Below, piece after piece: positions 17,830-64,000 of a stretch of DNA of 64,000 nucleotides; within the stretch, counting starts at the first letter, position 1; each line of letters starts with the position of its first letter. The stretch is from Labia minor. Taxonomy: Eukaryota; Arthropoda; Insecta; Dermaptera; Spongiphoridae. Under the pieces are notes generated by a model, which searched no databases, was not told where the DNA came from, and worked only from the letters and a program-made list of their open reading frames with translations. Location: positions 68,632,501-68,696,500 of the forward strand of contig OY720349.1 of the NCBI GenBank assembly GCA_963082975.1. The letters run 5' to 3'. A program made the translations under genes and the position numbers.

Positions 17830-17852
17830 ATATTTATTATATAAATTAATAT

Positions 17853-18027: not shown

Positions 18028-18058
18028 GTAGTTCAATGTTAATAAATTACTCCATAAA

Positions 18059-24191: not shown

Positions 24192-24221
24192 CTGTAAAAA
24201 AAAAAGAACAAACCATTAGTA
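24192..24221 (-). promoter_or_regulatory. 3' splice site and branch point of the RRM2 exon
   Basis: On the minus strand a T-rich tract ends in ACAG immediately before the exon (24195-24192). A TACTAAT motif at 24221-24215 is a near-perfect metazoan branch-point sequence, with its branch A at about 24216, 25 nt from the exon. This spacing is normal and fixes the exon start at 24191. Confidence 0.8.
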
Positions 24222-25364: not shown

Positions 25365-25404
<40 letters not shown>

Positions 25405-27664: not shown

Positions 27665-27701
<37 letters not shown>

Positions 27702-30580: not shown

Positions 30581-31261
30581 TTGTTTGGCAACAGGATGCT
30601 GTTCTGCTTTGGTTTGGGGTTTGATATCAACCAGCCAGCTGTGACACATTAGAGCTCACACTCCTCTCCCCTCAAAGAGATTGAAAATGGAAAACGGCCC
30701 TATATAAAACTGTATTTCTATCATATCAGCGCTTGGGCATTTAATAATTTAATAGCAGCTCCAATACACACCCACAACACAATACAATGGTGACTCCGTT
30801 ATGGTCTTTAAATATATAGCAGTTTTGTGACTGCATGAAGGGAAGGCAGTTTTTTTGGCACCCATTCTCTTTCTCGGCTTTGCCATCTATTTATTATAAA
30901 TTTATAAATATTTTTAGTATCATCTATCATATAATAGGGGGGCATACGTTGGTATGGGTTATTGCACACAGCCAGGGCATTTATAGTACTAAAATAGGAT
31001 CGGATGGATGGAGGATAAATTCGTTTGCTTTGCAACAAAATATGAAAGAAAATTAAATTGACCATAAAAAAAAATCTATTGAAGTAAAACATATTTTTTA
31101 ATCTTTCATTTCAAGCAAAAAAAGATAATCTCGATTTAATTTTTATTTTCTTCTTTCTTATTTTTATTCTATCTTTTAACAAATAAGACTGAATTTACTT
31201 GATTATGAAAGTGTATTAATGTACAACAAAACAATTCTATTTTCAATAATCTTAATCTTAA
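30581..31261. other. Island at about 30581-31030
   Basis: Frames of 73 and 94 codons overlap on opposite strands; neither has a recognisable motif. Confidence 0.45.
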
Positions 31262-31426
31262 TACATATATAAAAAAAGATTTTTGTCTGCACACATTGCT
31301 CAGAATTTAAAATTTTTTGCATATCTTCGCGTTTCATGACCTCTAGAATCCAAAAGTGACTTCTGTCTGTCCGGAAAATAACTATTTTATAGACTCAAAA
31401 TTGGCGAAGGCGCTCTTAGCAGCTAG
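31262..31426 (+). mobile_element. Helitron-like repeat, third copy (short)
   Basis: Shares the block from TTTTTGTCTGCACA through ATCTTCGCGTTTCATGACC and TCTAGAATCCAAAAGTGACT with 48285-48367. It ends GCAGCTAG followed by T. The 5' TC is degenerate. Confidence 0.5.
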
Positions 31427-33535: not shown

Positions 33536-33570
<35 letters not shown>

Positions 33571-34994: not shown

Positions 34995-35470
34995 TACTAT
35001 CAAGCCAGAGATGGTATTGCGATCACGAAAATTTTCCATGTCGAGATTTTGATGTTTTTATACGTTTTGAAAATCCCTGAGTCATTTTCACTAATTTTAA
35101 GAAAAATATCTGTGTGTATGTAGACAAGATTAAGCAAAAACGGTTTGAGATAGAATAATGAAATTCGGTAGACGGACATTATTCCAAATTCGTAGTTTTC
35201 TATCAACTTTTGAGAAATGTAGCTCAACCACAAGAGGGTCATTACTTAACACGTTTTGATTTTTTTTCCTCTAAAGTGACCGTAAAAGTAAAGTTATAGG
35301 TTTGATAGATTTTCACATGATTAAAAATTGTACAAAACTGCTATATATAGAATTTCAGCTTGATTGAATTGCTGAAAGTACAGGAATTAATTTTTTAAAT
35401 GCTAATCACGCGTCAGCACGTGACTTGGTCATCAACAAAGAACCAAACACGCGCTTGTTCAATATATATT
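34995..35470 (+). mobile_element. R3 interspersed repeat, copy 1
   Basis: The segment 35000-35240 (GATTTTGATGTTTTTATACG, GACAAGATTA, AAAAACGGTTTGAG, CGTAGTTTTCTATCAA) recurs in reverse at 50100-50335. The sequence after it (to a CACGTGAC-containing stretch near 35420) may belong to the same element. Class unknown, no coding frame. Confidence 0.65.
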
Positions 35471-38400: not shown

Positions 38401-38640
38401 AAGGAATATTAGAATATATTAAGTATCCACTCACGTCTTATATATAAAAACTAAATTTAAATTATAAAAAAAAAAACAAACTTTAGATAGTTCAACTATA
38501 TTTGTTCATTTCAAATTTAGTATTTGAATTATTCACAAAATAATAATTAATTTAATATAAATAAATTTAGTTTAATTTTAAGTTTTAACCTATTTTTATT
38601 ATCATTGTATAAAGATCTATAAGATATAAATAATGAGTAC
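35471..38640. other. AT-rich DNA with an island at about 37000-37440
   Basis: A roughly 60-codon plus-strand frame ending at 37440 (contains LEFSKATTLAGINFAEVNRW) is unlike its surroundings in base composition, but no family is recognised and no clear splice sites bracket it. Confidence 0.4.
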
Positions 38641-41600: not shown

Positions 41601-42050
41601 AGAAAAGTTGAAGATGAAAGTCAAAATGATAATTTCAAAATTAAAATACAATAAGAATTGAAAAATTATAAAATTGAATTAAATTAAAGTTTGTCTTTTG
41701 TGAATGGGATTTAATTTGTTTGTAAAAAAAAGAGAGATCAAAGGTTTAAAAAAATATAGGAAAATCTATAATATTTTTGCTTTTGTATGCCTTACGCCTG
41801 GCGCTTATGCAATTAAGTTAACGTCATTACAATGGTACTATGACAATTCTTGGGGTATATCATCCTTAATCTATAGAAATATTTAATGTAAACAGCAAGA
41901 AGATATTGGATTAAAGAAATGAAATACTTATATATAATAAGAATTTTTTTTTTCTCCACTTCACTCATTTATGTGATTTGATTAGTATTGCAAGTTAAAC
42001 GCATGCGCAAGAAGAGGCTTTGTCAAATGTGAAAGAGTGGCATTTTAATG
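38641..42050. other. Island 38641-39375 followed by AT-rich DNA
   Basis: The island includes an AATG repeat (39013-39036) and CAAC/GAC-rich stretches. Minus-strand frames (154, 96 and 71 codons) overlap each other and a basic 68-codon plus-strand frame, so none is convincing. From 39376 nothing was recognised apart from microsatellites. Confidence 0.45.
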
Positions 42051-42770
42051 ACACCTGTAGCTGCTACAATTTTGTATTCAAAAATCCAAATGTTTTATAT
42101 ATATACCTATACATCTTATTCTTGGTGTTCGGATTTTTTTTTCAGCCCTAATAATAAAATAATAATACATATGTGTATTATTGTTTAATAACCTCGGTTG
42201 TTGAAAGCTAAAATCGAACGAACAAATCAGTTATTAAATTTATATTCGAAAAAGGGGACAAAATAATTTTTAGTTTAAGCATGCAAAACATATCATCGCA
42301 TTATATTTAATAATATAGTATAATAATAAAAAATATATTTAATAATATTTTTAACATTCAAATTTATAGAGGCAAAATCTACACCTGTAGCTGCTACAGA
42401 AATGTTGAGTGTTCAAAGGCAGTTTGTATCTTTTTTGAAATTATTATCATCCCAACGAATAATTTTATTATTATTTTTTTTATTATAATAACTAATAACA
42501 CATTTGTACTAAATCAGATAGTGTAGGATTGTATAAAGGAATATTCCAGTTTCCGTTTTTTCCACATTTAATATAATGAGAATTAATAATAAAAATACAT
42601 AATATTAAATATTCTCTTTTAATATTCAAATAAAATCCAATAATCAAAAATCGTTGTTAAATAGTTATTTTTTCTGTTTTTCAACAGGTCTAAGGTCGAC
42701 CATTCATGATTATTTCGTTATTAATATTTTCCTTTAATAATCTTTTAGAGATGTTGAGTGTTCAAAGGCA
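42051..42770. repeat. Sequence interrupted by two insertions with 17-20 bp duplications
   Basis: ACACCTGTAGCTGCTACA occurs at 42051-42068 and 42381-42398. ATGTTGAGTGTTCAAAGGCA occurs at 42402-42421 and 42751-42770. The layout fits one ancestral sequence split by two AT-rich inserts (42069-42380 and 42422-42750), each flanked by a long target duplication. The inserts are not recognised and do not resemble each other clearly. Confidence 0.65.
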
Positions 42771-43293
42771 CCTGCACCTACACGCGTATCTCAAACGAGT
42801 AGCTGTCACACACTAAAACAGAATAAATCAATTGAGGGCCGAGTGGGAGGTCGGAGCTGGGCGCAGCTTAGATGGGGGCGGAAAGGGATGGGACACGCGT
42901 GCGCTTCAAGAGAGACAACTTGTTGAGCCAGCTGGTCTAAATATATACGACAAGAGAGCGAAAGAAAAGTCTCTCCATTCTACTTAACTAACTAATTAAC
43001 GAATATGGCTTGTCATATGGAACACCCTCCACACTCCCCATCCCTCATTCCATTCATTCATTCAATTTAATACAAATTTAGTAAAACAAGTGACTAACAC
43101 CAAGACATAATAAATAAACTATTGTTTTTAATAACATTTAGATAAAGAGATTATATAAATGGAATCAGTCAAGAAAAATAAATATTTCTTTAAATTTTTG
43201 CAAATTCTAAATAATCTTGAAACTATAATTTATTTTAATTAAAGTGATACTATAAAAATTTCTAAAGTTTTTTTTTTTTTAATTTCTTGGATT

Positions 43294-43298
<5 letters not shown>
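42771..43298. other. Island at about 42771-43060
   Basis: GC-rich (GGTCGGAGCTGGGCGCAGC), immediately right of the doubly interrupted sequence. No open frame. Confidence 0.5.
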
Positions 43299-43344
<46 letters not shown>

Positions 43345-43408
43345 GCTAGGATTTCACCCTTCCTTAAGCAGAATTGAATGTTATATATATATATATATAT
43401 ATATATAT
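43299..43408. repeat. Two (TA)n microsatellites around a 42-bp unique spacer
   Basis: Tracts at 43299-43339 and 43382-43408. Confidence 0.95.
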
Positions 43409-43757
43409 GGAAAAATTATAAATTTCTCAATAATTATAAAATAAAAAAGATGTGACATTCAATGGTTAGCTAACTTAACTATGAAATAACTAAATTTGTA
43501 ATTAATTAATTCATTTATCAAATTTACAAATAATGAATAATTGGTCGAATCAACAGTTAACACTTGTTGAAATTTCATTACATTATATATATAATATAAT
43601 ATATATATCCTCTCTTTATTTATTTGTTTCCATTAAATTGATAAATAATGAGAATGTCTGTTCATGGAAAAATTTATTTATAAATAGATTTCATAAATTT
43701 CGATTACTGAATATATATTAAATTTTATCTTATCTTATTATGCTAGCTAAAATTGTA

Positions 43758-43930
43758 TCTATATATATATATTGGTTCTCAAAAACCGCTCTAACGATTT
43801 TTTTCAAATTCACACTAGATATAGTATTTATAAAGAAAAATTGAGTTTTATTGATCACATCTCTTGAAACTTACAGCTTCATTATTAATTTCTTAATTAA
43901 AAATTATATATGGGTGTGACGTCATCAATT
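43758..43930 (+). mobile_element. Helitron-like or related repeat head
   Basis: A|TCTATATATATATATTGG is followed by GGTTCTCAAAAACCGCTCTA, a start resembling the 5' TC ends of the elements at 48269 and 50336, but with a different body. A TGACGTCA site lies near 43917-43924. No 3' end identified. Confidence 0.35.
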
Positions 43931-43932
43931 TT

Positions 43933-44262
43933 ACTCCCGCCATTTTTAAAAGATATTGTATTAATATTTTTTTTATATTTAAAATATTTTAAAATAAAAT
44001 AAATTTCGAAATAAAATTAAAAATATTTATTTTTAATAAAATATATATATATATATATTTATTAATCTCTCTCAAAAAAAAATAACAACAAAATACGGTT
44101 GGTTGACTCCCGCTTTTTTTTAAATGATATTGTATTAACATTTTTTTATATTTAAAATATTTTAAAATTCATTATTTAATTTCGAAATAAAATTAAAAAT
44201 ATTTATTTTTAATAAAATATATATATATTTATTAATCTCTCTCAAAAAAACAACAACAAAAC
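43933..44262. repeat. Tandem duplication, about 173-bp unit, two copies
   Basis: ACTCCCGC, then GATATTGTATTAA, TTTCGAAATAAAATTAAAAA and TTTATTAATCTCTCTCAAAA occur in the same order from 43933 and again from 44106. The second copy is slightly shorter in its AT tract. Confidence 0.85.
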
Positions 44263-44316
44263 AAATAAATGTCTTTGAAAGATGGTAAAAATATCTTTTT
44301 AATTATCAAAATATCA

Positions 44317-44371
44317 TAGACCAGTGGTAAGAACAATTGTTTTTACTCCCCGAGTTCGAAGGATCGAAACT
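44317..44371 (+). other. tRNA-like pol III promoter remnant (A and B boxes)
   Basis: TAGACCAGTGG (44317-44327) fits the A-box consensus at 10 of 11 and GGATCGAAACT (44361-44371) fits the B box at 9 of 11, with 34 nt between. No full cloverleaf closes around them. Probably the head of a degenerate SINE. Confidence 0.4.
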
Positions 44372-44621
44372 CGCCGCGTGCATTTTTTTTTTATCTATTT
44401 TCGTGATTTATTTATTCATTGTTCTTTTATTAATTAAGTTTTAGATAGTTTTATAATTTTTAATATTTTTTCAATAAAATATTATTTAATACATTTAATA
44501 ATTGTAATAAATAATTAAAGAATTGTATATCAATATTTTTTAAAGGGTAGAGCGAGCTCGGTGTCTCAGGTATTAATATTACCAGCCAAATCCAATAATA
44601 ATGAATCATTTTTTTTAACTT

Positions 44622-44655
44622 AAGTACCTAGCCGAGGCTCGGGGTCCCGGTACTT
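44622..44655. repeat. Nested inverted repeat (hairpin)
   Basis: AAGTACC (44622-44628) pairs with GGTACTT (44649-44655), enclosing a second stem CCGAG/CTCGG (44632-44636 and 44638-44642). A similar CTCGGTGTCTCAGGTA block lies about 85 bp upstream. Confidence 0.7.
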
Positions 44656-45359
44656 TTAATTTTATAACATTTTAGATTATATATATACATGTATATATAC
44701 AATACTTTGTTTGATACCTTTATCTCCGTTTAAAATAAATGAAGTTATGAAATAAAACAAAATAATAGTAGGTATTAGTAATAGTTGTTCCGAAAAAAAT
44801 TGGTTTTTAGTTAAAAAATTGTTTAACCGATTAAATTTGAACACTATTTTAAATGAAACATTTTAATTTAATTCATAATACTAAAACGAACGATGCACAT
44901 TTAATACGAATAATTTAAATTTAAACACTCGAATTAGTTTCAAATTGAATGAACATTTCAGTTGTTGCACCATTATCAGAAGCCCCCAAAAAAATCATCC
45001 AACCAATTTTTTTTTTATATATATTTAATTAAAAGAAATATAAAAAAAATATAATAAAATAAACAGCAATAGAGAAGAACGTTTATTTTCTCTCCCATCT
45101 ACCATCAATTTTTATTTTTATGTTTATTTCGTTGTGATTTGGCATTTTACATCGTTGCTTTCTTTCTATATAAAAGCATTAACTGTTCGCGTTTATATTA
45201 AAAAAAAGTACAGTGCTATTTATGGTTCCTTATAAAGGAAATATGCAAACGCAGGGTGGAAACAATCTTTTGCTCTTTCGCGGCTGATGGGAGGCAAAAA
45301 GATCTACTTGCTGCGATTAAACATACAATTCTTTTCCTTCGCTTTTATTTTATTTTTTA

Positions 45360-45396
<37 letters not shown>

Positions 45397-46966
45397 TTTT
45401 TTTTTCAAATATTTTTCTATAAAAGCATCAGATTGTTCTTTGTGCCCGTGTTCCATAATTTACATTTTATATAGCCGAGTCTCTCACCCGTTCATCCCCA
45501 TTTACCAGCGGCACCTATACAAGCCAGCAGGAAGAATAAGCGCCATGCATTATGATTAGAGCTTTTCGTTCATTCTAATTAATGGAAATACTCCGGATGG
45601 CGGCAGCTAAAAATGTTAAACCCACACACAATTTCATCCTTTCCCTTTATCTATATAGAGGGAGGATCTTTCAGAAAAAGCCATTTTTTCCACACGGTGT
45701 TCATATTTCTTTTTCCAACTTAATTCATTCTGCCTCTCAAACCCTCAAAAAAATAAAACCACCCAACCACCCATTCTGACATACACCGAAGCTTATATAA
45801 TATCCAAAAATATGACTATCGAATATATCGATCCCGTAAATCTCATTCCACAGCTGTGATAAGCCCTTTATTCTTCAGCCAAGTTCAAAAATAATGAACT
45901 AACCAGAGAATATATGGATACCGTTCTTTAGAATTTATAGGGGGAAAAAATAACTTGACTATATTAATAAAACATTACAAAATATAAAATGAAAATTATA
46001 TTTTTTATTTAAAAGTAAATAAAACAATTTATAAAATTTACTAGGAATAGTTGCAGGAATCCAACTCAGGAAATTCCTTATTTAAAAAATTGTAATAAAA
46101 TTCTATTGATAAAGTCTTTTTATTTGAATATTTTATATTTATATTTATTATTATTATTATTATTATTAAAATAATATAACTACAACAACTTATGCCCAAC
46201 AAAAGTTGATGTCTAAAATTCAGAAATGCGAATTATAAAAATTACCTTTACATAATTATTTAAAATAAATTATAATTATTATTTATTACTATTAATTTAT
46301 TTTTAATCAAAGAAAAACTATTTATAAAATATTTTATCTAAATAATAAATAAATAAATAAATATAAATTATAAATAAGTTTGTAATTGTATAATAAATCA
46401 ATTGTAATAAAATATCAATATCAAATAGTAAAATGAAAAATGATACGAGTTGATTCTTTCTACTAATGTATATATATTAAACAGCATAATTTTAAATAAA
46501 TTAATGATTTATATACGTATATATATATATAAAATTATTTAATTTCACTAAATTATATATTTTTAAAATATAAACATTGAAAATTATTCATTAGAATAAA
46601 TTTGAATAATTCTATTTTTGTTAAAATAAAAGAGAAATATGCCACACAAGTGATTAAAATGCAAGTTTCTTCAATTTTTAAAACATATTTCAGGGATTTG
46701 TAGATTTTTTCACATCCTTTTCCAAACACATATAAATATATTCTACCTAAGTATAAAATGAAAAAAAAAAAAAAAAAAATTTAAAAAGGTGCCCTTGAAA
46801 GGGCTCAACGGGTCCCACTTAAGTGAATCAAGGTTTATGTTAATAAGAAAAAAAAAGCTTGCCAAAAAAAGCATTTTTTGTGCGTCTATTCCATTCTATA
46901 TCTTTGAACATGGAAGGAAATGTAGAAAAGTGCTTTTGAAAAAGTTTTAAATAGAAGTAAAGCCCA

Positions 46967-46988
46967 AGAGAGAGAGAGAGAGAGAGAG
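46967..46988. repeat. (GA)n microsatellite
   Basis: Ten or more GA units. Other GA/CT tracts lie at 2346-2392, 32767-32784, 49195-49217 and 56204-56230. Confidence 0.93.
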
Positions 46989-47924
46989 GCCTATAAAGAT
47001 AGAGGTGGTGTCGATGACATAGGCGGCTCGATAGCTCTCTCATTGGCCACTTGATCAGCCCTTAAAAAGGAACCGGAATATCGCCTTAATCCAAAGGACT
47101 TCCTAAAGCACTTTAAAAAAATAAATTGATAAAAGTTATCATATAGTTCTTTTCCTATTTTTATAAATAATAAAAATAATGGTTAATAAAAAAAAGTACT
47201 AAGAATTCAGTTAATTCAAAGATAAGATTTTTAGAGAATCATATTTTTAAAGATGAACCTAATAAAAATTTCAAAATATATATTAGATAGTATACTATAA
47301 AAACTCGAATTATCCAGTTGTAAGTTTTTTTTTATCTATAATACGATAAAATAAGATTATATTATATGAAAAATGGAGATTACATAAAAATAAGAAACAA
47401 ATGTTAAAGAAAATTATTATTTGAAATTAAATTTAAAAAAATAATCGTTCATTATTGTTATTATTATTAAAACGATAAATTAAGGAGAAAATAAAGTAAT
47501 AAAAAATAAATAAATAATGAAAGCTATTTACAACTAATAAACGTAGAACAAAGTATTAAAATAATTAATTTAAATTTTTATTTAAAGATTCTATAATATT
47601 TTTCAAAGATATTTTATAATTACAAAACTTATTACTAATTATTAATGATTTTAGAAGAAAAGGTGTGACATTTGAAACTGAAGAAAAATTTAGTTGAGTA
47701 ACTTTGATTGATGATTAATCATCACCCTGAGGAATTATTTAGTTAGTGACTGAAAGGTAGCAAACGGAGATAAAAGATATTTAAAAAAAATGAACTAATA
47801 AAAAATTTTTTCTCATTTAATATATGATATATTTAAAAAAAGGATAAAAAAGGATGATATTTGAAAAATAGCCAATGCATGAAACAAATACTGTAATGTA
47901 AAATAATGTCTTCTATTAAGATAT

Positions 47925-47940
47925 AATTGCAATTGCAATT
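47925..47940. repeat. 16-bp perfect palindrome AATTGCAATTGCAATT
   Basis: Self-complementary and built from AATTGC repeats. No neighbouring feature explains it. Confidence 0.7.
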
Positions 47941-48268
47941 ACAATTTGTTAAAATTGAAAAACCAAAATAGTGTTTATAAATAAGTTTGTATTTTATGAA
48001 TTTAATAAATTTAGGGAAAGTTGATTAGTTATTGAAATAATATTTCACAAAAAACCTAAAAATATATATTATTTTTAAATAAAAATATAGGATAATTAAA
48101 TAATTCTTTTCTAAAAAGAATATATACAATTATTATTAATTATTTATTTATTTCGAAACTTTTCTCTTAACCTCACTCTCTAGTTGTTAAACTAATATTA
48201 GTTTTGCATTTCAAGAATAAATTTCAATATAATCTTGTAAATAATATGTACTAGAATTAAATTCTTAA

Positions 48269-48590
48269 TCTATATATATAAAAAAAGGTTTTTGTCTGCA
48301 CATTGCTCAGAATTTAAAAATTTTTGCATATCTTCGCGTTTCATGACCTCTAGAATCCAAAAGTGACTTTAGAATTTTAATGGAGGAAATTAACTTTGAT
48401 CTAAAAAAATTAGTAAATGAACTTAATAATAACAAAACAAATAAATCAATTAATTTAAATTAATACTATTAATGAATGTATATATTGGTAATTTATCTAT
48501 AGTTTTATAACGATAATTATGTTAATTTTATTTATATAAATTGTCTAAAGTCTCTAACTTTGCATTTTCTCAAATTTGTATTTAGCAATA
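48269..48590 (+). mobile_element. Helitron-like repeat, second copy (3' end unclear)
   Basis: Starts A|TCTATATATATAAAAAAAGG and shares TTTTGTCTGCACATTGCTCA with the copies at 31262 and 50336. The segment 48500-48590 matches 50405-50465. No clear CTRR end was found. Confidence 0.55.
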
Positions 48591-50099
48591 CATAATGGTA
48601 TAACATTTAAGAATTACAAATTTTTCTATTTCTTAAATTCAAATTTAAATTCAGCATAGAAATTCTATTTAACTGAAATATTTTATAAATTAACTGATCA
48701 GATGTTTTTTTGTGTGTAATTATAAAAAAGATAGCATGAAAATATATATTATTAGTTCAAGAGCTCTTGCTTGAAATCAAAATAAGAAAAACAAGTAAAT
48801 ATATTGGGAGTTGTCTCGAGATATATACAATAGATTATAGAATACGAGTAATATATAATATATATAACGTAACGCCTACGCTGTTTTGCTAATAGAAGCT
48901 TTCGAGCTTTAAAATTATTTCCAAATTTATAATTAATTCCTTCTAATAAAATATCTGCCTATAATCAGTTGTATTTTTTAATGCAGATATATTAATAAAT
49001 AAAATATCATTCATAATATGAATATGAAATAAAAAACAAATATGATATTTTTCTATTAAAATAATTATTAAAAAAAATCAGTAAATCATTTGAGACTTTA
49101 TTACAATGATGGTAGAGGTGATGTTAATTGATCTCTTTATATTGGTGAATTATGATAATTTCAATAGAAAATACACTTACGCTTTTGATATAGTAGAGAG
49201 AGAGAGAGAGAGAGAAAGAGCGTCATCGCCGCCCGCCTGGTTTCAGTTGGCATGCGCACTCACACAACAAAATCGACCGACTGACTGACTGAGCGAGCGT
49301 TCATTCGACTAGGAGCCCCTGGCATATAGGCAACCGGCAACACAAGCCACCCAATTTAAACTTGAAATATTTAAATAGTATACATACTCTATTATTAATT
49401 ATTAATCGTATTAATTCTGCATCTAATATTTACATAAAAATTTTAAAATAAATTGATATATTTGAATTTTCTAATATAAGAAACGAATGGTTATCAATTT
49501 TAATGGAATTTAGAAAAAAAAAATAAACAAATAAAAATTTTAAAAGAAAGTATTGGAAAATAAAATATGAATTATAGTATAATATCAAGATAATATCAAG
49601 ATGATAGATATATCATATATATTAGGTTTTTTTGGAATATTGTTTTGATATTTTCATAAATGGGTTTAAATAGAATTAATAAAAATAGAAAAGTAAAGAG
49701 CTATCAAAAGATGATTTAATACGAGATAAAAAAAGAAAATTTAATCAAAATTTATACAAAATTGATTAAGGTACCTAAAGTCTATACCAGTCTATGTCAG
49801 TAGGTATAGATGATTATTAAGAATAAGTAAATTTGAAAATTTACTTTATTTATAAGTTAATTAGTGTTTCATATTTTCTCTCTTTAAATGACAGTGGGGT
49901 AAAAAAGATCACCCACTCCCTTTTGTATTGAATGAGGTGTGTGATTCTATCTATCTCCGATCATAAGATTTAAAGTTTTTAACAAAATTTTCACTGATAA
50001 CATTTTGTTGATATAAGAAGACTTTTTGGATTAATACTATATTTTTGTGAGTTTAGCAAATTTATGAAATGTATTTGTTTTCAACTGCTTTTAGCTTCA
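48591..50099. other. AT-rich DNA with a compact island at 49195-49350
   Basis: The island follows a GA microsatellite and contains a GACTGACTGACTGAGCGAGC run. No coding evidence. Confidence 0.5.
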
Positions 50100-50335
50100 A
50101 TGGTCCTTTTGCGAATGAGCTGCATTTGTCAAAAATTGATAGAAAACTACGAATTTTGAATAATGCCCGTATACAAAATTTCATTATTCTAGCTCAAACC
50201 GTTTTTGCGTAATCTTGTCTACACATACAGAGAGAGACATTTTTTTAACCTTATTGAAAATGACTCAGAGACTTTCAAAACGTATAACATCATCAAAATC
50301 TCGCCATCGAAAATTTTCGAGATCACAATCTCTCA
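50100..50335 (-). mobile_element. R3 interspersed repeat, copy 2 (inverted; abuts the Helitron candidate)
   Basis: Reverse complement of 35000-35240 with scattered changes (AAAACTACGAATTT, CTCAAACCGTTTTTGCGTAA, TTGAAAATGACTCAGAGAC). It ends exactly where the Helitron-like element at 50336 begins. Confidence 0.7.
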
Positions 50336-50763
50336 TCTATATATATAAAAAAAAAGGTTTTTGTCTGCACATTGCTCAGAATTTAAAATGTTTTGCATAT
50401 TGCAATTATGTTAATTTTATTTTATAAATTGTCTCAAGTCTCTAACTTTGCATTTTCTCAAATTTCATTATAATTAGAAATATTCAATAATAATCTAGCA
50501 ATGAAAATAAAATATCAAAATGAAATGATCAGGAACTTTCGAGTATCTTTATTTAAATAGATAGATATAACATATACAATAATAATATATATATATATAT
50601 ATAATTAATTTACTGATTAAATTAAAATATATTTTAAATAAGAACACAAAAAGTAATGAATGTTTCATGTAATATACTGATTGAAACAAAATGGATGAAA
50701 ACCTTTTCCTACTTTCAACCAAATACTATGTACCACTCGGGGTACAGGGGGCGGAGCCACTAG
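50336..50763 (+). mobile_element. Non-autonomous Helitron candidate
   Basis: Begins TCTATATATATAAAA directly after an A and ends CTAG directly before a T, the TC...CTRR ends and A/T target expected of Helitrons. A GTACC/GGTAC hairpin (50730-50734 and 50741-50745) lies 18 bp before the end. The head (GGTTTTTGTCTGCACATTGC) recurs at 48285 and, slightly changed, at 31280, and an internal block recurs at 48500-48590. Length 428 bp with no coding capacity. The hairpin is a little further from the end than usual. Confidence 0.62.
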
Positions 50764-53700
50764 TAGATTAATAAAAAAAAAGTGTAATTTTTTAGTTCTA
50801 TATTAATTTGATGAATTAGGGAAATAAAAAAAAAACATTTTGATTTTAAATAAGATTGTCACAAACAGCACACAAGATGGCCTGAAGATTGCCTTAACCA
50901 AAACCGATACGTCATCCTAGTGGACATAAATAAATAAATAAATTTAATTCAGTTATAATAGTTATATAACAAATTTAAATGTAATAAATTATATAATTGA
51001 AACAATTAAATTGTTGAAATTTCATAATAAGTTAAAACAAGATAATTTGAATGAAATCTGTCAGTGGTGAATGGAAAATATGATGTAAGGTTGTGACAAA
51101 GAAGAGACAAGTGTTTGTTATACTTTTTCTTTTTCTTTTCCTTTATTAAAGGGTGTGTATACGTCTACAAGAGAGAAAAGGCGGGTAACAACAAAAAAAA
51201 AAAAACCAACAGCCGCCAATCAATGCTACAAGTTGTCTTATCAACTAATTTGCATCCGCATCGCTTGCGCCGCCAATGGAAATTTAATAATATCGACAGT
51301 GTCGTTTCAAAAAAAAAAAAAGATTATATATATGTTAATAATGAAACGATGATGTACGACGAAAAGTTATAATGAATTGCACGTTTTCACCGGAAAGAAG
51401 CGAAGATCTATATTTATTAAAATTAATAATCAGAAACTCTGTTAATAAGTGATCTAGCGGAGTTGTTAAGAAAGTTTCTAATGGGGACGGTGGGGGGAAG
51501 GGAGTGGGGAGGAGGATGAAGAGAATGGGTGATGGGAAGTGAATCTTGGAAGCCTGGTGGAGTTGAGGGAGGTGTATTTTCCCGGGGTTTGGTACAATTA
51601 TATTTTGATTGGTGGTGCTTTCGAGTTGAACTTCAAATGGACATCTGTTGAGCCAATGTCTTAAACGATGCCGCACGCCTCCTTCACGAAGACAAATTAA
51701 CTTCCCAAAAAGATTTAGCTAATTCCAAACAAATTCTTTCCTTCATGCAGAGTGAAAGAGAGCAAAGATAGGGCTAAGATAGGGATGAGTACGAGAATAA
51801 GAGAGAGAGAAAAAAAAAAAAGGAGAGTTTTGTTCTTTTTTCTTTTAACTAACTTAAATTAGATCTTATCTTTCTTCTGTTTCTTTGACATTTGATTTTG
51901 TTTAAATTCTTGTTTGAATTGTTATACTTGTTGCGTTCTATACAATCAATAACTTCTTTATTATTATTAAGACTATTATTTTTTTATTTTATTTTTTATT
52001 GAAAACACAAAAACCTTTTCACCTTATTTTCCATTGACTATTCTCTAAACTGTTCCACCCTCTTTTCTTCAATTTAAAGAATATTCTCTTATGGGAAAGT
52101 TGGAAGAAGAAGAAAAAAAATATAACCTAAATTTTTTAATATGCATCACTGATTCAATTTATGACGACAAACAGATTACCTGAAATCAGTGAGGCGAAGT
52201 TGAAATGAACCAGGGAGAATGCAAAAACAATAACATTATTATCGACTACATGTTGAATTATTTAATAAGACAGACAGACTTATTTCAAGTTCTTCTCTTT
52301 AACTTTTAGCTACATATATAAAAATATTTATTTCTAAAATAGTGAGATAATAGAATCCATATAAAGGATGAAAGAAAGAATGAATAATAATAATATTAAT
52401 ATAAAATTTTAATTTTTCATGTAATTTGCTTCTCGACGTTTTGGCACCCATTTTGCAACCATTTTCAAGAGGACTCTTGTAAGCAAATTTTGGGTCTAAG
52501 ACACAGAAATTTATGATTCTTATTAATAGTTATCATTTTTTTCTCGCTATGCCATTATATACTTGATAAATGAAAATATTTTCATTTTTTAATAGTAGAT
52601 TTAAATTTTAATAAGATTATATTTATATTAACAGTATATTTAAATAATAATTTAATTATATTTAATGTGCAATATAATATTGGTATTATTATTAATTATT
52701 TCACAGTTCATATAATCTTTTAATCATTACCAACAAGATTTAATTGATTTTAATTCACTTTAAAGGATGAGATTGAAAATCAAAAAGTAAATATTTATTT
52801 TTTCTTCTATCTCAGATTAAATTTATGTTTAGCTCTATTAATGTATCAAGAATATTGATAATTCATTTCTCAGTGTTATTATATTTATTCTAGCCAAACT
52901 AGGAGGGGTTCTGAATTGAAAATAATTGCTAAATAACCTAAGTTTACCTACCTTAACTATATTTGAAACAAATATTGACCAATTTTACTGAATGTATTTA
53001 TTAAATTTAAAATTTTATTAATGTAAGCAAAGATTTAATTATATTTAATTTAAATTTGAATTTAATAAAACAAGTAGAATAAAAAAAAATGTCCTACAAT
53101 CTAATAATAAACAACTGTATAACAATATATTATAAAATTAATTAATTACATACGTATTAAATCAAGTATTCAAAAAACTAATTAAGTTAAGGGTTTTACA
53201 CATATTACATAAAATTATTACTATTATTATATATTTTATTGACTATTGATATTGCATGATATTGATTGATATTATCAAGTAATGTTCTTTTTTTAATATA
53301 TTAATATTCCTCTGACCATCTTTATGTTTAGTCACCTCCATCCAATCACTAATATCTCCTAACTCCCCTTTGGTAATATTATTATCACTTGTTATATATA
53401 CTCTTGTTGTATTAAAGAACGGAATAGTATTTGTAAATAAATAATAATAATAATAATAATAAAAAGAAAAATGGGGGGGGGGGGTTTCTCAAAGCTGAAG
53501 AGAAGTTAATTACTTTTTAAAGAAAAATATTTACTTTCTTAATTATAATTCAAAAATGAATCGTAGTTAAATTTTGCCCTATTTGTCACGCGTGGGTTGT
53601 TTGTCGTGGATGTTTGATTCTAATTTAAATGTTAGAGAGAAAGACGAGGAGGAATGAGGAAGGTAAAAAAGAGAAAGAGAGAGAATGAGAAAGAGATAGA

Positions 53701-54285
53701 GAGAACGATACTTAGATAAGAGAGAAAGGGAGAGATTTTTCAATTAATTTCCAGCTCTTATACTTCTATCTCTGTTCTTCGATAAGGCCAATCACAACTT
53801 TACCATCTCAAGGCATCTTTATACAGAAATATAGATGCATTTATTGGTTGGAACTTGATGCGAAAGTTTGATTAATACCTAACTTTGTGAAAAGCGGCCC
53901 GTTCAATTCGTTTTGGTCGATAATAGCGTGAAATCAGAGGCACTATCGTCATTTTCAATTCAGAGAGAACAACTCTTACGTCACCTAAATTGGCCTCCTA
54001 TTTGAGTAAAAGGTTTTTGTGTCATTAATAATACTCTTTCCTCACAAGTTAAAATATTTTTATTAAATAATTATTTGGAAATGAAATAGAAGAAATTTAA
54101 TGTGACTTTAATTACTCAAAGAAACACGTTAAGAATAAACTAAAAGATAATTTCTTGGAGATATGACATTCTTATTAAGTCAGAAAGAATTGAGATATTT
54201 TATAAAAGAATGTCTTGAAAACTCTGCCACCCACGCATCCATTTCAACAAAACATTTTTTTTTTTTATTATTAAATTTAAAATCA

Positions 54286-54321
<36 letters not shown>

Positions 54322-55009
54322 GATTATATACCCTTTCCATGTGTTATCACATGTGTTAAATTAACTAGAATCGACAACAAATATATAAGCTTCATAATTT
54401 AAATTTAAAAATTAAATTTACCATTTTTTTTCTTCTTTTAAAAATTATATCTTGTAAAATTTGTTTTTATTTTTTTTAATAAAATATTATTGATATTATT
54501 ATTATTATAATGTCTTTTAAAACAAAATTGGAATAAATGGTATAAAGAGGGACAAAATTTAAAATAAAAAAAAACTTAATTTTTTTATTATAAAATTAAT
54601 GTTATAAGTATTTATATTTTAGAAATAAAAATAAAAATTTTAAAATTTGATAATTTTTTATTGTTGTAATATACTATTAAGAAAACATATTTACTAATTT
54701 CTTTTCTTTTATTATATGATTATTATATTTTTATTCCCTATATTATTTCCTCCATGTCTCTCCTCTTTCTTTCAAATAAATTCTTATAATATTGTAGATG
54801 TCACATATCATTGAATTCATATTTTTAAATTTATAGGAGAATAATTGAAAATACATTTAGAGTCCAAGGTTGTCTATGTTTTTGCAAATGTTTTTAACTT
54901 GATAACATATAACTATAAAATTGTTGAAAAGCTTAATCGTGTAATGATAAATACCGAAAATTGAATGTTATTAGTTTCGGGAAATGATTACTTTGGTATT
55001 TCGAAAAAG
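50764..55009. other. AT-rich DNA with islands at about 51060-51800 and 53570-54010
   Basis: The 113-codon minus-strand frame at 51335-51676 is proline/leucine low-complexity from a purine-rich plus strand and is not convincing. A weak CAG|GTAATC juxtaposition on the minus strand lies at 52182-52174. A 12-G run is at 53473-53484. Confidence 0.45.
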
Positions 55010-56197
55010 TCAATCTAACCCCTGTTTGAGAAGATTGATCCTATACTAGGCTCTTTTTCCAGCACACACTTCTTCTATCTCTCAACATGTTGTTCGTAGA
55101 TAGAGAGCGAAGGGAATTTTTAAGCGTCCACTTTCCAAGAAAATATTAACCTTGAGAACATGACTGTCCATCGCTCATTGTACCACATATACTCAGGAAA
55201 GGTGGGAGTGAAAGGGGTGAGACGGAAAAAAGATTTATCTCGGAGAAAAAAAAAGTGACGGTCTTTTGATTTATCTCCCGTCGTAATTGTATTTCATCTC
55301 AAGTCGCCGACATAGAAAGATAAAACTCTTTTAAGAAAATATCTCACAAATTGAATTTGTTTATTTACTTATCCCTCAAACGGATCTATCTATCCACTTT
55401 TAAAAATATCAAAGATATATTATATAATAGAAACAAAAACAAATTTCTTTCTTAAAAAATAAGGTTAATTAAAATTTATTTTGTATTAAAAAATAAAATA
55501 TTTTTATTTATTTTATACAATAAAGAATTGTGAAGATGAGAGAAAAAAAAAAAAAAAATTATTAAAAATATTTATGAAAAAGTGGTAATCTATGATAGAA
55601 ATAATGAGATAATAAGCAAATACATCCCCAAGCCTGGCTTTGCCAAGTCCCGGTTCGTGGTTCTATATACGTATATTCATGCTCTTATTTATAAATAAAA
55701 AATGTATTATTTTCAAGTAAAATTTGTTTTGTAGTCAATTAAGGTAAAAATATATAAATATGCTAATGTATGGAAAACATGTTTTGATTTGTGTCGTTTC
55801 AAATTGCGTCACCTTTTTTCGGTTTCTATTAACGATGGAAACCAAGGCTTGGGTGTATAAAATTTGGTTTACGTGCCAGAGACCAATAAATAAAAAATAA
55901 TTTTCAAATTATTTAATTTTATTTCAATTAACTTGTTAAGATTAAATGAAAATAAAATGAAATATCAATGTATTTGATAATTTTTTTAATAGTAATAAAA
56001 TAATAATATAATAATAATGTTATATGATTTTTAATTAAAAAAAAGAAATGAATTATTTTTCAATTTAAACATATAAAAAATAAAGGTAATTAACAAAAAA
56101 AAAAAACGAGTTAAGAAGGATTGACTGGCGAGGGAAATAATTAGACGAGACTCGATTATCTATACGAGAATGGCTATGGTGAAATTTGAATAGCAGC

Positions 56198-56230
<33 letters not shown>

Positions 56231-56619
56231 GTACTTCGAGTGGGCCTTTTAGCAGCAGCCAACACCAAAATAATCAAATTAACACGAAACAGATGAGTCG
56301 ATATCCCTTGTTTAGCCCTTCATAATTGTTTAAGACTTTAACACAACTCTGGGAAGGTTATTAATAAACAAGAAGGGGGAGAAATCGCCACCCTCCCACA
56401 TCAAATATTAACCCATTATCAAAGAGGAAAATAAAAATCATATACGTGCGGATCGTTTTAAATAATAGCCTGAAGTAATCAAGCGTGAGATTTTTTTTTT
56501 TTTATTTAGTAAAAAGTGAGAGATTCAATTAACAAAGATCAATAACTATACATTATTCTACATATATATATATATATAGAAACTCTTATAAATAAATAAA
56601 TATAATTATAATTATAATT
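55010..56619. other. Islands at about 55010-55330 and 56100-56460
   Basis: The second contains a CT microsatellite (56204-56230) that produces a 70-codon RERERE frame on the minus strand, which is not a gene. Confidence 0.45.
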
Positions 56620-56623
56620 AAAT

Positions 56624-56834
56624 GTGCCACTCAGAAGCCAAATCGACTCAATTTTTTAAAATTTTGCTAGTAATGTAATGTAATGTAATCAGCAACATAT
56701 GAAGTGAATAATGAACTTGATAATCTTAATATTGCAATGCAATATACATTTTTCTGTAATCAATAACCCTGAATTTCCTACAAGCTGTGCACTTTGGGCT
56801 TCATTTTCTCCTCAGTTTGGCTTCTGAGTGCCAC
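56624..56834. mobile_element. Short inverted-repeat element (MITE), 211 bp
   Basis: The left end GTGCCACTCAGAAGCCAAA and the reverse complement of the right end match at 18 of 19 bases, flanked by AAAT on both sides (56620-56623 and 56835-56838). The interior is AT-rich with no frame. It lies about 450 nt downstream (minus strand) of the ratchet-point candidate. Confidence 0.72.
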
Positions 56835-57228
56835 AAATAATTTATGAGTTCATATGAAAATTTTTCCATATGAAATTCTAAAAATTATATAATATAACTT
56901 GGATATATATATATATATATATTTGAATTTCTGATAATATTAATGTTTCCCATTGGATTGGCTCAAAATAACAGATTATATAACTAAAAGAAATGAAAGA
57001 AATAAAAATTAATCTTTTAATATGATAATAAGATCAATATTAATATGTTTTACTAAACTATTTTGTATTAAATTACATCATGAATACTTAAAATCAAATT
57101 ATATAAAAAAAAAAATATAAATAGAATAGAAAAAGATAGAAGTCAGAAATTCATTGATATAGCTCAATAAATAAATAAAAAATGAAAAAAATGTCAATAA
57201 AGAAGAGGAACTATTGACATTTCTTAAT

Positions 57229-57320
57229 CCTTACTGTTATCTTGTGTAAACCTTTAATGTGTGGGAAGGTTTTTAAGTTGAACTTACCTGAAACAAAAGA
57301 AAGAATAATGTTAAATACTT
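57229..57320 (-). promoter_or_regulatory. Candidate recursive splice site (ratchet point) in the 5' intron
   Basis: Minus strand: a pyrimidine-rich run (TTCTTTCTTTTGTTTCAG) is followed without a gap by GTAAGTT, the junction lying between 57288 and 57287. This zero-length-exon arrangement is the defining signature of recursive splice sites known from long introns of flies and vertebrates. A TTTAAC-like branch-point candidate sits about 20 nt upstream. A second donor-like GTAAGG begins at 57234, so a 53-nt recursive-splicing exon (57287-57235) could be defined. The site lies about 33 kb upstream of the only exon found, in an intron of more than 39.8 kb on the same strand, the context where such sites occur. 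No other site of this strength was noticed. Confidence 0.6.
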
Positions 57321-60300
57321 AAATAAATTATATATTTATGTTAAAGTTAATTAAATAAAGCAGATATAAAATAATATAATACATAAAGTCAGTTTGATAA
57401 CGTGTTTTCATGGTAATGCTTGTTGGATTAATTTTTATTTTAATTCTGTTTGGGCTGATTATTTGTTTTCTTTTTTATAATATAAGAAAATATTTTTTTT
57501 AAGATATACATTTAGATTTGAATTATTCTTTAAATATATAATTATTTAAATTACTTTTATATTTATTGATATTTAATAATTATTAAATATATACTACAAT
57601 ATGGGGTATTAGGTAGTATAATTATTATATAAATATACTATAATTCCTCTTGTACCAGTTACTAAATTTTAAAACAAGAAAACCGGTTGCATAACTTCCA
57701 GGGACGCATTCGTTTATATATAGTTAAATTATTATTTTTTTTTTTTACAAAACTAAAAGAATTAAATCGAGATAACTCAGAATATTAGGAATTTTAGACA
57801 GAGAAAGGGGAACTGTTCTTTAGAGTGAAGAAGAATTATTTTTTTGAACACACATAAATTAACTTTATAGATTGCTAATCAAATTAATCATCACCGGTTC
57901 CGCGTGGCATTGTAACAATTGACGTGATCGCATGGTCTGCATGTCACCCCAATTATAATTTCTTTTCTAAATACGTAATAAAGATCCTTTAATCGATTTT
58001 AAAATGAAAAACAAATTCAAACAAACAATACAATTGATATAACTTATCTTTCAATCTTATTAAAACAATAAATTACTTTAATCATACGTTTTAATATTCC
58101 ACGATAGTAACATAAAGGAATAATAAAATTTTGATAATCAAATAATATATTAAGATAATAAATAATTATTTTAAAATTGTATGAGAGGATAACAATAATT
58201 TTATACACTTTTCGTTTTAACCGATTTGCTTCCTTGTTTCTCCTCGACCCCTTCGATATCAACAAAATATAGTTTAGTAGGAATGGATAAAATGTGCTTA
58301 GAATAGGCTCATGCTGCTCTGTTATATTCATGTTTATTTAGGTCCTATTATAAACTAAGCAAACTAATATTTGTTCATGTTTGTAATATTACAGAAACTT
58401 CATTATTAACGTCTGTTTCATTTTTAGTTAATTCGTGTTGATCATGAATATTACTAATAGGTGCAGCTTTTAAAATAAACAAGATTTCTATTTTAGATAT
58501 TTATTTATGCAAATATTTATAAACACATAATCAATTATTTTTTTATTTGCATCACTTAAAAGAAAATAATATCAAATGAAATACAAAGTTGATCATTTTA
58601 TACCTTTGATTTTAGATTAAAGACTTGTGAAAAGGAAAATTTTCAATTAAGTTTAGTAATATTTATATTAGAATTTTTGTAATAATGCAAAAAAATGAAC
58701 TCCATTCTATTTATTTGTCTTTTTGTCTTTATGAAAGTTCTTGGGTACATCAACCACATTTCTCCAAACGACTGTAATCGAAACTATGTTTGGAGATCAT
58801 GTAATTCCTTGTTATGCATTCAATTTTTCGAAAAATAAATTTAAAAATTTGAAGAACAAATTTTATTGAATTATCTTAAGATGGGTAAATATTAAATTCA
58901 TTTCTTGTTGTATATTAATGTTTATAATATAATTTATAATTTACATATATTAAACTGTAAAAAGCCTACGTCATGAGAGGTATATTTATTTATATATAAT
59001 TATTTAAAGGAAATTTAAAATTTAGTTATTTCTGCAAGTTTTTTTTAAAACTTTGTTGTAAAATGTATCCTATCTATCCTAACTCTGTCTACTTTATTAA
59101 AATAGCAACAGCAGAACTATTGCATGCGGGATGTACGAATTATTATTAATAACCCCCCCCCCCTCCACCCCAAAGTAATTTTTTTTTTCGATTTGAATTC
59201 CATTAGATTTATGTCACAATATATGGAAGAGATCGGATCAGTTATTTTCTTTAGCATGGATATTTCTTCTTTTGGTTTTCAAATAATAGCTTGTATATTT
59301 TATAAAAACAATTTATGTATAACAAATATGAATATACAAAAACTTCTTCTATCTCCATGCACTAAACCGTTTTTATGAGGTCGTTCAAACTAACTTGGAT
59401 TAGCGCTCGGGCTAAGTTGATGGTCAAAGCGATCTGCAGCTTTAATGCCGCCGCGTGGGCAATATGACGCGCCTTAGCGAATAGTAATCCACCATTAGTT
59501 ATTTTTTTCCTATTTGTAGAAGAATACAATCTGAATTCTTATTCGTTTCTCTATTTGTCACCAATCCTTGTCCACGCATGACGTCATTAATAATTCAAAT
59601 AACAGGGTTAATATTTTTTTTTGAAAAAATAGGCATAAATATAAATATATATTTTCATATATAAAATAAAAAGCAATATTTGTATTTTTTTTTATTTAAT
59701 CGTGTTATCAAATTTTTTTAATTGTATTGAAATAATTTTTAATTTTAAATAATTATTATAATTTATTATTAAATCAAATAAAACAAATGAAAAGTGCATA
59801 AAAATTATTTCTCTTATCGTTTATATTTTATGTGCGTATTTTCAAATATATATTATTAAAATATATTCGAGAATTTTTTAATATAATATTTTTTATATAC
59901 ACAATTCTTATATCTTATATATTGCTATTATTTTTGCAACATTGGAAAGACTAATCATGAAAATAGGAATACGAACGAATTCAATATAGAAAAATATATT
60001 GAATCAATTTTTGCGAAATAATTTTATTATTAAGGGAAAAATTTCATTATTTGCCATTTCCTTATTGAGACAATATGGCCGAAATTTCTTTTTTATTTTA
60101 TTATTTCACTGTGAAAGTCAAGGTGGGCAGCAGCACTTTCAATATTGCTGCTGGCAGGCTGGGTGTGTATTTTGTGTGTGCTCTTGTTATTACTTAGACG
60201 GGAGACTTGTCGGGGGGAAGGGGGTAGAAAGACCAGGGCAGAAGGCAGCAGCATCAGCACCAACATTGGAGACACTTCTCGATCAATTGAAACTTGCCCT

Positions 60301-60834
60301 GTTTGCACACAAACACACTATTTCTCTCCATCTCCTATATATATATATTTACTTTTCTTTCGCTTGTGCTGTTCAAAGCATTTGCCACCTTTCGATTTCG
60401 ACCTTTCCATTTCTATAAGAGGGGGAGAAAGAATATCGGACGCTTCTTATAATCCTTAGGCAGATTATCCGGAAATTGACTGCACAGGAAAAAAAGAGAG
60501 GAGAGAGTTTTTTTTTTTTTTTTGGTTCAAGAAAAAAAGTGAAAGAGGAAGAGAAAAAGAAATGAATTCATGGGATGGCTGACTGGTTCAACTTCGAGGC
60601 AATTGGAATGAGTAGCTAATAAGCCATCTTGACGAGATGGGAAAAAAACCAATAAAAATTTTTTAGAGAAATGATCAATTAGAATTTATAAAAAATTGGA
60701 AATCGATACAGATATTATATAAGCATTAAAATAAATGATATAATTATAATGGTTCTTTAAACTCTATACTCTACGAGTTTTACAAAAATTAGGTTTTTAA
60801 GGGTAAATTCAATTCTTATCTTTTTTAATGTTTT
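57321..60834. other. AT-rich DNA with islands at about 57890-57960, 59380-59600 and 60060-60640
   Basis: The island at 59380-59600 contains GCTTTAATGCCGCCGCGTGG and a TGACGTCA at about 59579. The island at 60060-60640 has overlapping 139- and 104-codon plus-strand frames without motifs and the CAGCAGCA inverted repeat. An 11-C run lies at 59153-59163. Confidence 0.45.
60128..60153. repeat. Perfect 8-bp inverted repeat CAGCAGCA / TGCTGCTG
   Basis: Arms 60128-60135 and 60146-60153 around 10 nt, in a GC-richer island. Confidence 0.7.
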
Positions 60835-61690
60835 CAACCGATCGACAGCTTGAAATTAATAAATTAATTTCCAGCTACAGAAACAATTTCAAATAATTTT
60901 AATATATCTATTAATGCAATAAAAAAAAAAAGATATGTATAGAACATAAAAATTTTTAATTTTATTTTATTTATAATATATAAGTAAGAGGTAGCTGCGA
61001 CGTCATATAATTTTAAATTAAGAAAAAAACTAACGAAGATAATTTTCCCGAGGATAAAACCAATACAAAGTGCATGATTTGTGGAGAAAGATAAAAAAAT
61101 CTCCTCATGTAAAATTTGGTGTGAAAATAACCCTTCTCTTCTTCCTATTAAAAAAAAACCTCTGAATTTGTACGTCCTACGCAAGGACAACGCCTATCAA
61201 GCCGGTTATATCAATGAGGTGTCCTATGATCAGTAAAACGGGTCCTCTCAACCTTTACCTTCATTTTTTTGATCGGAGGCGCTATCAAGTAGCTTTCCCC
61301 AATGTTTTTCCCGGAGGCTGAGTTGACTCAGGCAAGGGACTTGAACCCGGGACCATGTGAATGTGAGGCAGGTTCGCTACCCACACACCCAATGGCGCCT
61401 TCTTCTCTTCCTATTGTCGATCGGTAATACTACGACTTCCGGTTTGCACCAAAAGTTGATCAATTCATCATACTGATGCATTATAAGTAAATATACCAAA
61501 TTTCATCAAAATCCGTTGAGCCATTCAAGTTGTACACATCTATACGGACGGACAGACGGACAGACTTGATGCTAAAAATACTTTTTTCTTTTAAGAAAAT
61601 GCATGATTCGTGGAGATATGTAAAAAATCTCCACATGTGAAATTTGGCGTGAAAACAATACCTTCCTTACTATCGTCGGTCGGTAAAAAT
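60835..61690 (+). mobile_element. R1 interspersed repeat, copy C, interrupted by a SINE
   Basis: Collinear with copy A from the ACCGA...GACAGCTTGAA left region to the CGTCGGTCGGTAAAAA right end, with a SINE inserted at 61150-61400. Of the two TGACGTCA sites only one degenerate CGACGTCA remains (near 61000), because the intervening segment is deleted. Confidence 0.85.
61150..61400 (-). mobile_element. tRNA-derived SINE inserted in R1 copy C
   Basis: On the minus strand the element starts GGCGCCATTGGGTGTGTGGG (61399 downwards). It carries an A-box-like TGTGTGGGTAG and a B box GGGTTCAAGTCC (near 61339-61350) with tRNA spacing, then a unique body (TTGTCCTTGCGTAGGACGT) and ends in a T run. The host repeat sequence is duplicated on both sides as imperfect CTTCTCTTCTTCCTATT and CTTCTTCTCTTCCTATT, a target duplication typical of LINE-driven insertion. 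R1 resumes exactly where it left off. It is not a functional tRNA: the cloverleaf is degenerate and the body is long. Confidence 0.82.
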
Positions 61691-64000
61691 AACAAAAAAT
61701 AAATATATTAATATATTACTTAAAAAAAAAGTCCATTTATAAACTAACAGGGAAATTATTATTCTAGTGTTTATATATATATATATATATATATATTCTT
61801 TTATATCTCGAGATAATTTTATTTGAATAAAATATATATTTATTTAAAAAAATAAAGTAAATGGAATTTTATTTTTATAACTTTAATCCAACTTGAAAAT
61901 TAACATTCGTAAAATAAAATAAAAATAAAAAAAAAAATTATAAATATATACAATATAAGAATAAAAAAAAAGTTTACTGTTGTCATTTCGCACATTATCT
62001 TTTATAATTAGTGAAATTAAAACAAAGCTATTAAATTAGACAACTTTTGGGCCCCATTTTTTATTGCACATTATATTTATGACCCATGGAGTATGTGTTT
62101 TTATGCATCTTAATTATTTACAATTAAAGTTTTAACCCAGATTTATTTGCTATTTGATCTTGTTTTAATATCCGACCCTGAAGTGAAAAAAAATTCCAAC
62201 TTTTTTTTTTTCTTCTTTTTAATTAAAAATATAAAGTTGAAATAAATCATTAGAGAAAAAATTACATTGAGAATGAATAAATATATTTAAGAAATTCTTA
62301 AAAAGTTTATTTTTATTATTTATTATATATGATAGTTTATAATGAATTGTAGTGAAGAGAGACAGAAAGGTATTCATTTCAAAAAACAATATTAAACGAT
62401 TTTTAAAAAAAATTAAATGAAAATAATATTTTATTAAATGAATAATTACTTCTAGATAAAATAGATAATAGAGTCAAATATATAATTTATGTAAATTAAA
62501 TAATATTCCTGTTTCCAATAAGCATATTTTGGGTTTTTCATCATAGAGGATGGGAAGTTATTATCTTCATAAGTGTTAACACATTATAAAACAATGTGAA
62601 GAACACACAAATACATATATTCTATTCTATAATACGACTCCCTTATTGAGATTTGAAAAAAAAAAACAATACTCAAGGGCATTTTATCTTTTGATATGTT
62701 TAAGAGAGTAGCCTACTAGAAATATTATCAAAATATGTCTATTTAATTAAATATTTTATTTGAAGATAATTATAAATTATCGGTAAATATATAAGTTAGA
62801 GATAATATCAGAGTTGATCAAGTATGGGAATAGAAATGATATGATAGCGAAAGAAAGAAGAATAAACACATTTAGATTAAAAATAGTCGGGAATATATAA
62901 ACTTTGCACGGATTGGAACTAAAGCGACGGTGTGGAAGAACCAACCCTATCCATTCCACCACTGCCCTTAAAAAAGGAAAGAAAGAAGAGGAGGGAGAGA
63001 GAGAATGAAAGAAACAAAAGAAAACAGATGAGAGAATGAAGGGTGGTCTTCTGGAGCGTGTTTGTGCAAGAAGTGTCTCGGTATGTGCGGGTACGCCAGC
63101 CTTCTTGGGCCAGCGAACAAAAGGGCCGTAAGGCAACGGAAAGCCCTGCCAACCCGTGGCCCATTGTGCACACCGATAAAATACTGTTAATTTGTTACGA
63201 AAATAATAGTAGGAAAAAAAATGTCTCTCTTTATGACAGCCGAATTTAAAATGATATTAATTATTCAGGTTGACGGAAAGGGCTAAAGTTCTTTTGCGCG
63301 TGCCAATTAGATATTTAGCCCCGAGCTTACTGTCCTCGGGAGGTGTAAAGTAGATGGGGGAAGGTAGAGGGGATGGAGGGTAAACTAAGTGCATCATTAA
63401 TCTTAACTTGACTATCGTCCTGCATAATGGAAAGTACTCCAACCACCTCATATATTATGCGGGAATTTCTTCAGTGTAAAAAAAATAAATAGATAATAGT
63501 AGCAGAGTTTAGCTATTTTTATGGCGGAAGAGTGAAAGGAGAGAAGGAAAAAAAAAAACTAAGTGGATAATTTGATTTTTCAATTAAATGAAAATAGATG
63601 AAGAGACCTTTTAAAGTAAAAAATTAAATTATGTTTAAATTACATAAGGTTCAAGATTTATGAATGTGAAAATTTTAATAATCACAGTATTTAAGTGCAA
63701 TCATGTGGATTAAAAAATCGCAAAACAATAATTAGTTAAAAATTAGATTTAACGATGCAAATTTTCATTTTATTTTATCTGAAAAAACTAAATCCAAATT
63801 AAAAAAAAAAAAGCAAATCCCTAAATATATACATATTTAATAATGATAATTTAAATTTAAACATTTTACAAGCTAACTTCTGTGATGAATATAAGTAAAA
63901 TTAGTATTTCGAAAAAATGTCAATTTGTCTAGTCCTCAACACAATCATATATCGCCCCCATTTCTCTAGAATCTCTCTTCCCATTCTCTTTGTTTCATTC
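61691..64000. other. AT-rich DNA with an island at about 62900-63460
   Basis: The island has mutually overlapping minus-strand frames (67-119 codons) with no recognised motif. No RRM1-type exon was found up to the window edge. Confidence 0.45.

Follow-up and report, generated by a model that had tools for sequence, protein, structure and literature searches.

A candidate Drosophila-type ratchet point in a 110,865-nt intron of a Rox8/TIA1-type gene

The window analysed here, a stretch of 64,000 nt, corresponds to C6:68632501-68696500 of a 604-Mb assembly and carries a coding exon of an RNA-binding protein gene on its minus strand (Table 1). The exon is flanked by TTTTTTTTTTACAG on the acceptor side and by GTAAGT on the donor side. 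Its translation agreed with a fly Rox8 sequence at 88% of 25 residues and with a human TIA1 sequence at 71% of 24 residues. When the exon alone was searched against the PDB, TIA-1 was the best single domain (22.0 bits) among the 4 alignments listed, with hnRNP A2/B1 at the top of the ranking. No further Rox8/TIA1-type exon was found elsewhere in the window. With this Rox8 protein as query for the genome, the minus strand of C6 gave six collinear matches of 57-79% identity; nothing corresponding to query residues 1-62 was detected in their vicinity on C6. The matches run from C6 69,159,875 down to 68,535,669, and the gene hence covers at least 624 kb. Judged by its sequence, with several RRM exons in order on C6, it is a Rox8/TIA1-type gene. 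About 392 kb separate the matches at C6 68767654 and 69159792. Joining the window exon to the next exon upstream gave 54 residues in an unbroken frame. The intron between the two is 110,865 nt long and of phase 2, splitting a Ser codon after the second base. The start of the window exon at 24191 is settled, since the frame would be lost if the AG located two bases further on were used.

Table 1. Positions of the exons, splice elements and further features; plain numbers refer to the window, C6 and C1 to the assembly.
Feature	Position	Strand	Remarks
Coding exon, A + 25 codons, second RRM, 76 nt	24116..24191	-	RRM_1 E 7e-05, above cut-off
Upstream exon, 88 nt, ends ATATC then GTGAGT	C6:68767644-68767557	-	own genome
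In-window portion of the 110,865-nt intron	24192..64000	-	5' end C6:68767556, 71 kb beyond window
Rox8 matches	C6 69159792, 68767553, 68656610, 68631291, 68553920, 68535669	-	genome search, Rox8 query
Acceptor half, pyrimidine tract + CAG (TATTCTTTCTTTTGTTTCAG)	57288..57307	-	11.2 bits
Donor half, GTAAGT, adjoining acceptor AG	57282..57287	-	in best compound site of the window
Predicted branch-point A in TTAAC	57311	-	24 nt upstream of junction; pattern yTnAy
Predicted cryptic RS-exon, 53 nt, frame-shifting	57235..57287	-	ratchet junction to GTAAGG donor
Predicted RS-exon donor GTAAGG, context ACA/GTAAGG	57229..57234	-	6.3 bits
Weaker compound site	16048	-	16.2 bits, donor GTGACC
Weaker compound site	25824	-	13.6 bits, poor tract
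Weaker compound site	52179	-	13.5 bits, weak donor
Second sense compound site, TTTTTTTTCTTTTGTTTTAG/GTAAGT	C6:68721084	-	18.4 bits; outside window, 31.3 kb upstream of 57287
Third sense site in 244 kb	C6:68535638	-	18.1 bits, end of Rox8-type coding match
hAT-type transposase remnant, two overlapping frames (411 + 220 aa)	18032-19917	+	220-aa frame: Dimer_Tnp_hAT just over cut-off
Open frame of intronless copy, 406 aa, three RRMs	C1:49286706-49287926	-	genome search

Within this intron the minus strand reads TTCTTTCTTTTGTTTCAG/GTAAGTTC, the slash marking the junction and the G of GTAAGT being window base 57287. In the wider context, ...TTTAACATTATTCTTTCTTTTGTTTCAG/GTAAGTTCAACTT..., zero bases separate the AG of the acceptor from the GT of the donor. 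The initial annotation had described a minus-strand acceptor abutting GTAAGTT without an intervening base, on the same strand as the exon and about 33 kb upstream of it, in an intron of more than 39.8 kb belonging to a TIA1/Rox8-type gene. The sequence agrees with all of this: the junction lies at 57288/57287, the distance from 57287 to 24191 is 33,096 nt, the full intron is longer than the window shows, and the six ordered matches on the C6 minus strand identify the gene. A ratchet point is expected to combine an abutting AG/GT with a pyrimidine tract and a strong donor hexamer, and to lie on the sense strand of a long intron; at 57287 all of these are present, and the intron is bounded by two exons that share one frame.

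The acceptor half scores nearly as high as the acceptor of the Rox8-type window exon itself (11.2 versus 11.9 bits with the same matrix). Besides the predicted branch point, further yTnAy matches occur at -37, -54, -60 and -64 relative to the junction, and the stretch between an AG at -32 and the acceptor AG is AG-free. On the two strands of the 64-kb window together, CAGGT[AG]AG has a single occurrence, at the candidate ratchet junction. With fly-like acceptor and donor weights, the compound score at 57287 was 20.7 bits, and the runners-up in the whole window had 16.2 (minus) and 14.6 bits (plus). In each of 12 scorings the site ranked first on the minus strand and surpassed every site of the plus strand. 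These scorings came from 4 matrix combinations, each evaluated once as a normalised score and twice as log-odds, with two different backgrounds; the normalised compound score was 0.92-0.94.

Downstream of the junction, a second donor delimits a predicted cryptic RS-exon. A donor as good as ACA/GTAAGG is expected 0.12 times per interval of 30-100 nt. When the upstream exon is joined to the RS-exon, the reading becomes ...GEIS followed by an immediate stop. With the weights used here, the regenerated donor ATC/GTAAGT reached 6.25 bits, the RS-exon donor 6.28 bits and the native donor ATC/GTGAGT 7.04 bits; this scoring rewards G against an AT-rich background, and by the hexamer alone GTAAGT is better than GTAAGG. 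The GC content of the RS-exon is unremarkable, as 31% of the 53-mers of the window are equal or higher, and its body is T-poor.

Examination of the complete intron on the sense strand revealed compound sites of 20.7 and 18.4 bits, followed by a third of 14.4 bits, while the best antisense site had 14.1 bits. The two best sites cut the intron into pieces of 46.5, 31.3 and 33.1 kb. Their likeness is confined to the junction (28 nt, 89%), other matches in the 1.6-kb surroundings being short or non-corresponding. Without flanking homology at corresponding places, the two sites do not look like copies of one repeat. An RS-exon is expected to be short, usually out of frame and followed by its own donor. 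Such an exon is predicted at 57287 and absent at C6:68721084, where no donor above 1.5 bits was found within 20-250 nt, so the second site misfits the RS-exon model as scored here. In the 244 kb read, three sense sites and no antisense site reached at least 18 bits; the third of them, at C6:68535638, is probably an ordinary exon donor.

The cryptic RS-exon of Drosophila ratchet points measures about 50 nt, is usually out of frame and carries its own donor (PMC8605326). In flies, 63% of the introns > 40 kb contain a recursive site of high confidence, and a further 7% contain one of medium confidence (PMC6110457), which would be a favourable prior for the present intron if the organism is fly-like; its closeness to fly Rox8 suggests that the organism is an insect. 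Similar to the ratchet points of kuz, Bx, Ubx and others (PMC8605326; PMC6110457) are the abutment of acceptor and donor, on the sense strand and within a very long intron, the predicted short out-of-frame RS-exon with its own donor at 57287, and the presence of two sites that divide the intron into like-sized pieces. Differences are also visible. The segments of 31-47 kb are about two to five times as long as typical fly segments of 9-15 kb (PMC6110457). Fly ratchet donors are generally stronger than RS-exon donors, a tendency and not a rule (PMC8605326), whereas the regenerated donor here is no stronger than the RS-exon donor. Moreover, no RS-exon donor accompanies the second site, and the host gene is of the Rox8/TIA1 type. 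In mammals, more than 6,400 potentially expressed RS-exons have been described, as against just nine sites definitively noted as fully suppressed (PMC8605326). The predicted exon resembles these in starting with a donor sequence and in a fate that would be set by the competition of two donors; it differs in that a skipped exon is predicted here.

An acceptor-like tract never used in splicing might lie beside GTAAGT by chance in an AT-rich intron. We regard this as unlikely. Acceptors at least as good as the ratchet acceptor occur 13 times on the minus and 7 times on the plus strand of the window with the fly-like matrix, and GTAAGT 6 and 8 times, respectively; from these component counts about 0.002 juxtapositions are expected per window, which argues against chance. 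Simulated 64-kb strands, drawn from Markov models trained on the site-bearing strand itself, matched the score of 57287 in 5, 9, 15 and 25 of 2000 cases (orders 1 to 4), and in 1, 0, 1, 2 and 2 of 200 cases in a smaller simulation (orders 1 to 5). At such rates a 604-Mb genome would contain a good number of equally good sites by chance alone. The score is rare for a single window and not rare across a scan of many windows, and the site was picked after the fact. A site together with an RS-exon-type donor, which is present here at the usual distance, arose in only 1, 0, 1 and 4 of 2000 simulated strands. The intron as a whole also speaks against coincidence: it has two sense sites, whereas its antisense strand does not exceed 14.1 bits, and among 500 simulated introns per model, pairs of sites of at least 18.35 bits appeared in 0 (order 1), 2 (order 3) and 3 (order 4).

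An ordinary 53-nt poison cassette exon, with its acceptor at 57288, its donor GTAAGG at 57234 and the GTAAGT at its 5' end unused as a donor, would explain the usable splice sites at both ends, a donor on par with the regenerated one, and the stop after GEIS upon inclusion. It offers no reason why such an exon should keep a perfect donor hexamer as its first six bases, nor why the same juxtaposed motif stands at C6:68721084 without any cassette exon, and we consider it very improbable. Even less probable is that the site belongs to some other minus-strand gene or non-coding transcript within the intron. The scans made would overlook an unknown nested gene if its exons were short. Nevertheless, exons of a single gene flank the intron on both sides and join in frame, and among the 18 open frames between 24.2 and 64 kb none exceeded its curated Pfam cut-off, the best hit being Tetraspanin with an E of 0.097 in a Pfam scan of all 29 window open frames of at least 90 aa plus the frame of the known exon. 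No Rfam family was found at gathering threshold in the window. A transposon origin of the site was also considered: a second copy of the surrounding 1.7 kb was not found in the window at E 1e-3, and in the 244 kb only an inverted-repeat element within the surrounding 1.6 kb was duplicated, in a copy that excludes the site, so this origin was rejected. Conservation via viral contigs was likewise dismissed. One exact match to a shortened pattern was obtained there (20-nt alignment, E 0.055, GC 41%), which lacked common context and was attributed to chance.

With a probability of roughly 0.77, we therefore favour the reading that 57287 is a functional intronic ratchet point of the Drosophila type, as the initial annotation had proposed. 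This part of the proposal is strengthened by the motif, the sense strand, the long intron, the branch-point-like element, the RS-exon donor and the second site; the missing RS-exon donor at the second site and the segments exceeding the fly-typical length fit it less well. The view of the whole intron thus adds weight to the ratchet-point reading, and the site still has the standing of an unproven candidate based on DNA sequence. The sequence shows the elements and the strand they lie on, the exons on either side, the phase of the intron and the stop, and from these we infer use of the site and the order of steps as follows. The spliceosome would define the 53-nt RS-exon (57287..57235) by its acceptor at 57288 together with the GTAAGG donor. 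The upstream exon, ending in ATATC, would be joined to 57287, where a donor would be regenerated. In a final step, this donor would be spliced to 24191 with nothing retained. The site at C6:68721084 may be used before, in which case three successive steps would remove the 110.9-kb intron. Splicing from the RS-exon donor instead would make the message stop right after ...GEIS.

Use of the site would mean that a Rox8/TIA1 gene whose introns are very long, in a genome that resembles those of insects, undergoes recursive splicing of the Drosophila type and has a cryptic RS-exon bearing a stop. In that case a protein that regulates weak donors would itself depend on the contest between two donors of equal strength. 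The known mechanism would remain unchanged even then. A literature search pairing 'recursive splicing' with 'Rox8', with most subscription journals outside its scope, returned no such report, and a first report is not claimed. Equal strength of the regenerated and the RS-exon donor would make the outcome tunable, and a self-regulating switch is conceivable in which Rox8/TIA1 protein binds a U-rich stretch past the RS-exon donor, favours the stop-bearing exon and limits its own level. The protein is known to bind U-rich RNA downstream of weak donors. T content was 0.54 at +59..+129 and 0.52 at +59..+109, values reached by 6% and 12% of the same-strand segments of the window, respectively. This enrichment is too weak to support autoregulation; a U-rich enhancer past the RS-exon donor was rejected as a candidate, and we regard the switch as quite improbable.

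Several further elements were noticed in the window. The hAT remnant lies in the next intron, antisense to the Rox8/TIA1-type gene. Beside it, at 17443-18026, a cluster of tandem arrays is found, four of them with periods of 55, 30, 24 and 11 nt and 91-100% matches. A tandem repeat of 176 nt with 1.9 copies and 87% matches is located at 43943-44267 within the long intron. The inverted repeat at 56616-56842, 0.4 kb downstream of the ratchet point, has 27-nt arms that are 89% complementary and 173 nt apart, and a 76% similar copy of this element was detected at about C6:68758430-68758650. Clusters of longer open frames in the AT-rich window were observed at 9533-11069, 22228-22698, 32525-33246, 38655-39342, 51335-51718, 59990-60459 and 62777-63256, and no Pfam match at E 0.1 was found for these seven. 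Finally, an intronless Rox8 copy was detected elsewhere in the genome, with 77% identity to residues 1-290 of the fly Rox8 query at C1:49287087-49287905. Its sequence suggests a retrocopy whose reading frame has stayed open, and the spliced C6 gene may hence not be the sole source of Rox8.
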